A DNA stretch of 39,952 nucleotides from Alphaproteobacteria bacterium (GTDB lineage Bacteria; Pseudomonadota; Alphaproteobacteria; RF32; CAG-239): the NCBI GenBank assembly GCA_017546315.1, contig JAFYXH010000003.1, positions 65,536-105,487 on the forward strand, in the 5' to 3' direction. The position numbers were made by a program, and so were the translations under genes. A model generated the notes under the pieces. The model was given only the letters and a program-made list of their open reading frames with translations, ran no database searches and was not told the origin of the DNA. How positions within the stretch are numbered: the first letter of the stretch is position 1; the number at the start of each line of letters is the position of its first letter. Below, piece by piece: positions 18,312 to 24,874 of the stretch.

Positions 18312-19100
18312 ATGTTAAAAAAACTTTGGAATGCTATCATCGCGAGATGCGAAGGTACTTCAAGAAGAAAGCAAGAAATTGCTCAAGGTGTAAAAGATGG
18401 CAGTGCAGATTTTGTACCTAAAAAACCTATTGAGGAGATAAACGATTGGATGAAAGACGTCAAATTGACGCCATCCCAAATAACAGATATATTAAATAGG
18501 GAAAAAGAAGACAGGGTAATGCTGGAAGTTTTGCGTAATAACAAACTAGATCCAGCTCAAGAAGAAATACTAGTCTCCAAAAGAAATACCTTACTGTTAG
18601 AAACTTACATATCTCCCCAAGGTTATCTCGAGCCATCAAGAACTCTATCTCCCAAAGCAGAGTTCGCTTACATCTTATCAATGCTTGATACTAAAAAAAC
18701 AATCGGCATTGAATTGTTTAAGATCTACGTAGATAATGCAAAAAAGACCATTATGACAGATGCTATTCTAGAAAAAGCATTAGAGGTCATAAATGCATCA
18801 TCAGACGAAACAGAAAAGACAGAGTGTTTTGCAGCCAAATACCTTTTATCAAAAGCCTATTTGAACGAAGAGCAAGAACAGTATTTATTGAATAACGCAA
18901 ATCCAGCGTATATAGACGAATACATCAACTCAAAAGCACTCTATCACGAAAATTCGCAAATTTTGCTCATTGAAAAGTATTTCAACTTGGCAAAATTGCA
19001 TCAAGAACAGTATGGGTTGCGTGCAAAAGCATTACAGCTATTTCACGCAAAGCGCAAAGAAGAACTTCAACTCCTTCATCCAGAAGGTGCTGTTCCTTGA
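18312..19100 (+). CDS. Unknown cytoplasmic protein with helical repeats
   Basis: I do not recognise a named family for this 262-aa protein. The N-terminus (MLKKLWNAIIARCEG) is a short amphipathic helix without a signal peptide. From about residue 52 it looks like repeated helical hairpins of roughly 25-28 residues. The clearest unit is YLLNNANPAYIDEYI (191-205), with related units around 57-76 and 87-100. Similar units make up the proteins at 20748-21617 and 23849-24874. By analogy with other alpha-solenoids it could be a protein-binding scaffold, but that is inference. The ribosome binding site is weak. A terminator follows directly. Confidence 0.75.
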   Translation: MLKKLWNAIIARCEGTSRRKQEIAQGVKDGSADFVPKKPIEEINDWMKDVKLTPSQITDILNREKEDRVMLEVLRNNKLDPAQEEILVSKRNTLLLETYISPQGYLEPSRTLSPKAEFAYILSMLDTKKTIGIELFKIYVDNAKKTIMTDAILEKALEVINASSDETEKTECFAAKYLLSKAYLNEEQEQYLLNNANPAYIDEYINSKALYHENSQILLIEKYFNLAKLHQEQYGLRAKALQLFHAKRKEELQLLHPEGAVP

Positions 19101-19106
19101 AAAATT

Positions 19107-19143
19107 AAACCCCATATGTGTTTTGCACATAATGGGGTTTTTA
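19107..19143 (+). terminator. Rho-independent terminator
   Basis: The arms AAACCCCATATGTG (19107-19120) and the matching strand ending ATGGGGTTT (19125-19140) form a long stem with a bulged A and a short loop. T residues follow. It lies seven bases after the preceding stop. Confidence 0.85.
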
Positions 19144-19191
19144 ATTGAAAAAAGTATATGTTTTGTGTAATATTATTAAAAAGGAGTAAAC

Positions 19192-19758
19192 ATGGACATT
19201 TTTAAACCACAAGAGCATCTTTTAGGAGCTCGTGTTGTTCTTATAAGAAGAGATGATTGCTATGAAGAAGAAATGCTTTCAGCAATTAACGAAAGTAGAA
19301 CAGAATTGCGAGAGTATCTATTTTGGGTAGATAACACCAAAGACCTATCTGATGTGAAAAAAGCAACTCAAATCTTTCAAAAGCAATGGGATGATAATGT
19401 AGCTTGGGGGTATAATATTTATCAACGAGACACACTTGAATTGATAGGAACAATTAGTGCTCATAACATACAATTCAAGAATCAATCCGTAGAACTCGGC
19501 TATTGGTTGCGAACTTCTAAAACTCATCAAGGGTATATGAAAGAAGCCATTCACGTACTTGAAGAAGAGTTGTTTAACCAAGGTATTCATCGAATAACCA
19601 TCTGCTGTGATGTTTTTAATAAAAAATCATCTAAAACAGCAATTAGAGCAGGGTATAAGTTTGAAAGTGTTGCCAAAGAAGCAGTATATCACCATACAGG
19701 CCTTCATGATTTAGAAACTTATGTAAAATTTAATCCTTGTCATCAAAGAGGATTTTAG
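19192..19758 (+). CDS. GNAT family N-acetyltransferase, RimJ/RimL-like
   Basis: The 188-aa product has the RimJ/RimL layout. An N-terminal GARVVLI strand and an E-x-R-x-x-L...W segment (LREYLFWVD) come first. Motif A region VELGYWLRTSKTHQGYMKEAI follows at about 100-120, and then RITICCDVFNKKSSKTAIRAGY. Such enzymes transfer acetyl from acetyl-CoA to N-terminal or other amines of proteins or small molecules. The substrate here is unknown. AAGGAG lies upstream of the ATG. It is monocistronic, with its own terminator. Confidence 0.88.
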   Translation: MDIFKPQEHLLGARVVLIRRDDCYEEEMLSAINESRTELREYLFWVDNTKDLSDVKKATQIFQKQWDDNVAWGYNIYQRDTLELIGTISAHNIQFKNQSVELGYWLRTSKTHQGYMKEAIHVLEEELFNQGIHRITICCDVFNKKSSKTAIRAGYKFESVAKEAVYHHTGLHDLETYVKFNPCHQRGF

Positions 19759-19766
19759 TCACAAAA

Positions 19767-19800
19767 AAAACACCGCCTTATTAAAAGGGGGTGTTTTTTT
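19767..19800. terminator. Bidirectional Rho-independent terminator
   Basis: CACCGCCTT (19771-19779) pairs with AAGGGGGTG (19785-19793), with one internal mismatch. It is flanked by an A run and a T run. It separates the acetyltransferase gene from the convergent small gene that ends at 19809. Confidence 0.8.
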
Positions 19801-23268: not shown

Positions 23269-23424
23269 AACCAAATGTCCTTATTTTAATGTTTAAACCT
23301 CCGCAATTTAATACCAATTTTTGCAACCTGTCAAGAATATTTAAGTGTATAAAATAAATCTATTCTTTAAAAATTTTTAACCCAATACTATATAAAGGAT
23401 GAAATATATCAAAAGGAATATGAA

Positions 23425-23784
23425 ATGAAACGTATATTAGGACTATTTATCTTAGGTTTGACATTATTTTTAAGTGCTTGTAATGAAAAAACTTATACAA
23501 ACAGAATTTATGTGTTTTCACAACCAGGTTGCGGTCATTGTACAAATGCTCATCATTATATGGCTCGCTATTATAAAGATTATGATATAAAAGAATTAAA
23601 TATACGTGAAGGCTCAAATATGGGGTATATGCTCCGTTATGCTAAGAAGTTTAAAGTACCAGAGCAAACATTGGGAACTCCATTTATCGTAATGGGGGAT
23701 AATTATGTTATGGGTTGGGGTAGTGAACAGATTAAAGAATTTAATAAATATGCAAAATCATTCAAGCCTAAATCTTCTAAGTAA
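23425..23784 (+). CDS. Thioredoxin-fold lipoprotein
   Basis: The 119-aa product has a lipoprotein signal peptide with lipobox LSAC (Cys19 becomes the lipidated N-terminus). A glutaredoxin/thioredoxin-like domain follows, with the redox pair CGHC at 36-39 and a cis-Pro in GTPFIVM (P86). With Asn after the lipid Cys, it could be sorted to the outer membrane. It probably acts as a thiol oxidoreductase in the periplasm. The partner is unknown. AAAAGGAA precedes the ATG. It is monocistronic. Confidence 0.88.
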   Translation: MKRILGLFILGLTLFLSACNEKTYTNRIYVFSQPGCGHCTNAHHYMARYYKDYDIKELNIREGSNMGYMLRYAKKFKVPEQTLGTPFIVMGDNYVMGWGSEQIKEFNKYAKSFKPKSSK

Positions 23785-23802
23785 AGAGTAAGTGTAAAAC
23801 AC

Positions 23803-23837
23803 AAAAAACGCAACTCCAAGTGGAGTTGCGTTTTTTT
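23803..23837. terminator. Bidirectional Rho-independent terminator
   Basis: CGCAACTCC and GGAGTTGCG (within 23809-23830) form a perfect stem around AAGT. It is flanked by A6 and T7. It lies between convergent genes. Confidence 0.92.
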
Positions 23838-23848
23838 GTGTTTAGTGA

Positions 23849-24874
23849 TTAGCTAAGTGCTTTAATCAATTCAATCATCTTTTCATTACCGCTAGAAAAG
23901 ATGTATTTCTTTTCTTTTTTGCCCAAATTATTGATATTACCGATAAATTCCTTCATTAAAGAGAAGTTGAGGGTCTCAGCAATATACACATAGAAAGGGT
24001 ACGATTTAACCTTTTGTTTTGCAAGAAGTCTGATGAGTTCTGCATTATTAAGGTTGATGATAGCCTTCTGAGTAAGGGTACCTGGTTTCTTTTTCTGAAT
24101 AAGCATCTTTGCAAATTCATGGTTGCGAGTGTTTCGGATTATAAAAGCCGCAACCTCGTCAGAGGGGTGGCAGTTGTTGATGATACACTTCGTAATTTCA
24201 TCGTTGTTAAGTTTGACGATTTTAAAATACATTTCATCAGGAAGGCGTTCCTTAGAGCAAGAAAGCATTACCTTAATCGCCTCAAATCGCTTGTTGGCAA
24301 TAATTTCATCTCTTTCACTGAAAGATAAAAGAGGGCTCTTTGCAAGAATTAAGATGGCTTTGTCGTCTGCGTTCTTGATGATGTAGCTCTTTGCATAAGC
24401 AGACAAATCTGACTGTTTCTTGACCAAAGCTAGAGTCCATTTGGGATTGTTGTACTCAACAATAACATTCTGAGCAGCCCAACCGATGCGACGAGATAGC
24501 AAAAGGTTGATGAGTTTGTTGTTTTGAGTTTCCGCAATAAGCTTTTCTACAAACCAATAAACATCTTTCTTCTTCAAGAGTTTTTCTACATAGTAAAAGT
24601 TGTTTTGTGCGATACTTTCCTTAACGAGTTTTATTTGCTCGTTTTCGTTAAAGAGCTTTTTCAAAACGTTTACGCCAGATGTTTCATTGGCATCGCCGTT
24701 GAAAAGTTTTCTGTAACGATTGGTTAACTCCTTGTCTCCAAAACGTTCTACTTCGTGCATCAAATCTTCTTGGTGCTTTTGGTCTGATAAATAACCAAGA
24801 ACATCTACTCCATTCTGGAATAGAATACTTTCATCGAAATTTTCCATTTTTAAAGTTATTTTTTTGTTAAACAT
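23849..24874 (-). CDS. Unknown protein with about ten helical repeats
   Basis: The product is 341 aa from the ATG at 24874. A TTG at 24886 and an ATG at 24847 are alternatives, and none has a clear Shine-Dalgarno. From about residue 80 to the end it divides into roughly ten units of 25-28 residues. Examples are AIINLNNAELIRLLAK (271-286), KIVKLNNDEITKCIIN and FIIRNTRNHEFAKMLI. Each unit has two short helices joined near an N-N or N-x-N pair. The pattern suggests an alpha-solenoid related to those at 18312 and 20748. The N-terminal 80 residues are acidic and non-repetitive. No signal peptide. Function unknown; a binding scaffold is a guess. Confidence 0.75.
   Translation of the reverse strand: MFNKKITLKMENFDESILFQNGVDVLGYLSDQKHQEDLMHEVERFGDKELTNRYRKLFNGDANETSGVNVLKKLFNENEQIKLVKESIAQNNFYYVEKLLKKKDVYWFVEKLIAETQNNKLINLLLSRRIGWAAQNVIVEYNNPKWTLALVKKQSDLSAYAKSYIIKNADDKAILILAKSPLLSFSERDEIIANKRFEAIKVMLSCSKERLPDEMYFKIVKLNNDEITKCIINNCHPSDEVAAFIIRNTRNHEFAKMLIQKKKPGTLTQKAIINLNNAELIRLLAKQKVKSYPFYVYIAETLNFSLMKEFIGNINNLGKKEKKYIFSSGNEKMIELIKALS

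Follow-up and report, generated by a model that had tools for sequence, protein, structure and literature searches.

The three genes that we call P1, P2 and P3 encode proteins built on the same 26-residue helical repeat. With a probability of about 0.6, they are paralogues within a family of cytosolic alpha-solenoid proteins acting as diversified protein-binding scaffolds, where the location, the role and the diversification of targets are what we infer. The genes lie in the window, a 39,952-base stretch of contig C10 from a 0.82-Mb, 65%-complete genome of a bacterium that may come from a gut and belong to an RF32-type order. Their ATG starts and coordinates were confirmed, and the three single-unit peptides quoted in a preliminary description of this DNA are present in P1, P2 and P3.

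Table 1. Features of the solenoid-family genes in the window
Feature	Position	Strand	Residues	Description and basis
P1	18312..19100	+	262 aa	Solenoid-family protein; held-out profile, unit decoding, syntenic orthologues
P1 units	18546-18623, 18861-18938, 18939-19016	+	79-104, 184-209, 210-235	Unit decoding
P2	20748..21617	-	289 aa	N-terminal module and seven helix-pair units; held-out profile, AlphaFold2
P2 N-terminal alpha/beta module	21471..21596	-	8-49	Conserved GYPF-x5-DG-x-C motif; module profile E 6.9e-16
P2 solenoid	20751..21341	-	units at 93, 119, 145, 171, 210, 236, 264	Unit decoding, AlphaFold2 helix pairs
P3	23849..24874	-	341 aa	Solenoid-family protein without N-terminal module; held-out profile, syntenic orthologues
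P3 units		-	130, 211, 238, 264	Unit decoding
Terminator-like site, intrinsic, bidirectional	23803..23836	.		15-bp stem, T tails on both strands; common to P3 (-) and the thioredoxin-like gene 23425-23784 (+)
Terminator-like stem, intrinsic, 3' of P2	20665..20699	-		16-bp stem, then T run

The repeat unit comprises 26 residues in two short helices, with the consensus LSDEAQLLLIERGNDELIKAYIEKYG. Searching the same genus with P2 brought up numerous proteins, as long as ~620 aa, several of them encoded in tandem gene arrays. Near-perfect repeat arrays occur in four same-genus proteins, and 33 of the 40 seed units cut from them are exactly 26 residues long. With a profile made from these four proteins alone, P1, P2 and the orthologues of P3 scored above the best shuffled sequence. 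A held-out profile, trained only on proteins from other species, with all window ORFs and all P1 and P3 orthologues excluded, selected exactly P1, P2 and P3 among the 42 window ORFs (E = 2.5e-15 for P2, 5.2e-8 for P1, 5.7e-6 for P3 and 0.88 for the next ORF), bearing out the original observation of a shared ~26-residue repeat. The corresponding scores were 51.0, 27.6 and 21.1 bits vs. 10.6 bits for the best of 2080 shuffles, and P3 orthologues reached 4e-13 with the same profile. In direct phmmer searches, P1 and P2 matched the same other-species proteins, and P3 matched members of the same family.

An additional 26-column weight matrix, for which every window ORF and the families of P1 and P3 were kept out of the training set, decoded three units in P1, seven in P2 and four in P3, placing units at least 26 residues apart so that shorter spacings would be missed. 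The totals for P2, P1 and P3 (81, 39 and 36, respectively) compare with shuffle maxima of 13.6, 14.5 and 10.4. All three proteins had been described as dominated by repeats, but in P1 only three units are recognizable, which falls short of showing dominance. The figure of about ten units first proposed for P3 is plausible from the length of the protein, but four units decode directly and an alignment of its orthologues supports about six.

The predicted fold class is alpha-solenoid, as modelled for P2 and for one 18-unit relative from another species. AlphaFold2 modelling of P2 from a 22-row alignment (mean pLDDT 78) gave an N-terminal helix plus strands over residues 1-50, followed by a linker of low confidence (56-71) and a solenoid of helix pairs with a 26-residue period, beginning at residues 95, 121, 147, 173, 212, 238 and 266. 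The 18-unit relative was modelled as a long solenoid with the same 26-residue period, with pLDDT mostly above 90 over the array and low confidence in its two N-terminal modules. The solenoid part of both models contains no strands and no beta-hairpin finger between units. The best structural matches reached Z = 8.8 with P2 and Z = 10.2 with the 18-unit relative; they are scattered across ankyrin, PUF, armadillo and HEAT proteins with no family standing out, and values of this size occur among unrelated helical repeats according to the structure-search tool's own note.

Comparison with known repeat families supports the initial view that the three proteins cannot be assigned to one. Pfam assigns no family to P1, P2 or P3. 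No ankyrin match was obtained for any of them even at E = 1, and Ank_2 matched a P3 orthologue at E = 0.019 with 16.0 bits, below the cut-off of 27.3. The PUF, armadillo, HEAT and TPR Pfam families did not match P1-P3, nor do they figure in the top 25 families by frequency of matches when 87 members of the solenoid family are scanned; no fused enzyme or other domain of known function was found in these 87 members. The weak Pfam matches that regular members gave (BibA_N, Maf, Saposin and others) were rejected as scattered and below cut-off. LigA was rejected too, since it exceeded its cut-off only with an idealized consensus, an artificial sequence, and by summing partial stretches of match. 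Consensus templates for leucine-rich variant, ankyrin, TPR, PPR, SEL1, HEAT, ARM, PUF and mTERF repeats gave no profile signal in what is a weak test, the templates being single sequences. A search of PADLOC defence families with the 87 members gave scattered weak matches only, with none for P3, and the open-access papers searched yielded no described 26-residue bacterial solenoid like this one.

Both models resemble the armadillo/importin-alpha and PUF alpha-solenoids of the PDB, which are among their best solved matches, in stacking antiparallel helices into a curved rod. They differ from these in the 26-residue two-helix unit, for which searches of solved structures gave no meaningful sequence match. 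The likeness to ankyrin lies in short helix pairs that end in a GN- or GH-like turn, and the ankyrin part of HACE1 is the top structural match of P2; the present unit is, however, shorter (26 vs. 33 residues) and lacks the ankyrin beta-hairpin finger in the models. Ankyrin and TPR families are expanded repeat-protein families of host-associated bacteria. Like them, the present family shows clade-specific expansion of paralogues and a variable number of repeats, but its repeat is absent from Pfam, it lacks evidence of secretion and its arrays stand amid housekeeping genes. The absence of any curated-family match or meaningful sequence match to a solved structure, taken together with the solenoid models, places these proteins in the alpha-solenoid fold class as a repeat family that is undescribed in the libraries searched (Pfam, NCBIfam and PDB), with a fold that is only generically armadillo-, PUF- or ankyrin-like.

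As far as sampled, the family is confined to one alphaproteobacterial family. By profile search, 50 of the 101 genomes sampled from that taxonomic family have members, across 13 of its 16 genera. No match fell outside it among 385 genomes of the class, and among 398 genomes of the phylum the window's own genome was the sole match. These counts and the solenoid models agree with the preliminary description, which had suggested an expanded, lineage-specific alpha-solenoid family and proposed counting repeat matches by HMM. The own genome, at 65% completeness, has nine domain matches, and the maximum in one genome of the family is 46 (domain matches, not genes). Further members in the own genome are encoded on C11 (123, 600 and 617 aa) and C12 (214 aa). 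In some species, the genes form tandem arrays set between housekeeping genes. Two proteins of ~890-900 aa with ankyrin-like motifs recognized by eye are encoded on contigs with solenoid arrays (L048 1415-4093 and L049 5168-7876). An origin from phages or plasmids was rejected, as the 18-unit protein has no relative in phage, plasmid or viral-contig collections.

Judged by gene order and sequence identity, P1 and P3 are syntenic but fast-evolving genes. Syntenic orthologues of P1 occur in six other same-genus genomes (35-47% identity) and those of P3 in three genomes; overall, the P1 and P3 orthologues share roughly 33-50% identity vs. 80-88% for proS. P2 appears to be inserted only in this genome: in G009 and G011, its slot between proS and the gene at 20179 lacks a counterpart. 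Orthologous pairs that are closely related gave dN/dS values of 0.05-0.67, indicating that the orthologues tested are under purifying selection; positive selection was rejected, dN/dS being below 1 in these pairs. The G009 orthologue of P3 contains an extra internal block of 114 aa, about four units. Unit consensus differs by lineage (LCxEAQLKMFELPNAAELLKxYISK in G089, LxxxAQxLMxEKCSDDVIKAYxEKY in G008), and mean unit identity is 18% between groups vs. 39-51% within these regular arrays. High identity within arrays and low identity between lineages point to re-amplification of the unit after divergence. The most regular arrays (L067 6001-7854 and similar members) are cysteine-rich (~3.5-4.6%), with cysteine positions recurring in each unit; the window members are not.

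In the scaffold reading, the 26-residue helix-turn-helix units would stack up as a rod, and other proteins or peptides are the expected ligands of its surface. In front of the solenoid, some members, P2 among them, have a small N-terminal module in one or two copies. This agrees with the distinct N-terminal domain that had suggested a modular protein, and a profile of the P2-type module finds 51 copies in 30 proteins, usually two per protein. New binders may arise by duplication of whole genes, giving tandem arrays, and by duplication of blocks of units within genes, followed by divergence. No signal peptides were found in family members, as had been stated for the three window proteins, and an N-terminal hydrophobic segment occurs in 1 of 121 members vs. 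127 of 515 other ORFs. The median net charge of the family is slightly negative, which counts against general nucleic-acid binding. P3, unlike most of the family, is basic (+13), and this charge, together with the three clear units of P1 and the lack of a fused known domain in the 87 members scanned, counts against the scaffold reading.

A more elaborate form of this proposal, which we consider rather unlikely, is an evolvable library of binders, in which a constant N-terminal module would carry or place a variable solenoid re-tuned by unit duplication, the class having arisen in this alphaproteobacterial family and been re-amplified independently in several species, possibly for recognition of host, competitor or phage proteins. 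Alpha-solenoids are a main natural scaffold for evolvable binding, and a class with 26-residue units, in which nature offers near-perfect arrays of 18 units, would add a new and designable repeat family. Its repeated expansion in one uncultured lineage raises the question of why so many different binders are kept.

The preliminary description had remarked that such families may be scaffolds or effectors. As effectors, the proteins would reach other bacteria, a protist or a eukaryotic host through the clade's type IV secretion system of the VirB type, and would have expanded like the ankyrin-repeat effectors of host-associated Alphaproteobacteria. Conservation of the VirB-type gene set in the clade makes such a role possible: VirB4 is present as a single copy in 85 of 101 family genomes, among them the own genome, and has neighbours that are VirB2- and VirB5-like. 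The lack of signal peptides, the fast divergence and the species-level expansions of the solenoid members would also fit. The repeat is, however, equally frequent in genomes without detected VirB4 (8/12) and with it (34/71; p = 0.35), a co-occurrence test weakened by incomplete genomes, and G402, G003 and G011 have 20-27 repeat matches yet no VirB4 match. The C-terminal charge of members is not above that of other ORFs, and they have neither a basic C-terminus nor a VirF-like motif; three VirB4 loci examined contain no solenoid members, and P1 keeps a syntenic place amid housekeeping genes. Nothing that was found supports secretion, there being neither a type IV export signature nor an association with VirB4, and we regard the effector side of the remark as unlikely. 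Export by a T6SS was rejected, as VipB is absent from 17 genus genomes. In the own genome, the VirB-type genes (L172, on C2 at about 82-97 kb) comprise the single-copy VirB4, two VirB2-like pilins and VirB5-like proteins.

Binding of RNA, with one unit per one or few bases as in PUF, PPR and OPR proteins, is suggested by the PUF domains among the top-ranked solved structures for both models, but the PUF chains align at Z 8-10 with rmsd near 6-10 Å, scores that the tool's note also gives for unrelated helical repeats. PUF units have about 36 residues, longer than the two-helix unit of the family, and the negative median charge likewise makes RNA binding highly improbable. Finally, the three window proteins might be non-homologous and alike only because a common pattern of amphipathic helices arose convergently. 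Their mean unit identity is 15%, and the profile-profile comparison that the preliminary description had called for was not significant between P1 and P3 orthologues on their own; each matched the family profile (97% and 94% probability for P1 and P3, respectively), though that profile contains them. The fact that the held-out profile separates these proteins from the remaining window ORFs and from shuffles, and the shared 26-residue period and GN-x-x-L-I-x-x-Y pattern, argue for homology, and convergence is already disfavoured to the point of being barely credible.

Each of the three genes was thought to have its own terminator. P2 has a terminator-like stem, and P3 has a terminator-like site that is shared with the convergent thioredoxin-like gene, but P1 has no terminator before the next gene, the first one downstream (19774-19793) lying past that gene. 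In six related genomes, a gene of ~470 aa, which we take to resemble HydG, stands between the DJ-1 gene and P1, a position that corresponds to 18084-18312 of the window, where it is absent. A 389-aa gene that follows the orthologue of 13411-14289 in relatives is also missing from the window. The small genes at 19809-20171 (-) and 20179-20553 (-) were ruled out as extra solenoid members, since hhalign shows no kinship between their proteins and the solenoid family. They evolve fast, are syntenic in relatives and form a pair of paralogues (98% probability and E = 2.5e-14 in hhalign).
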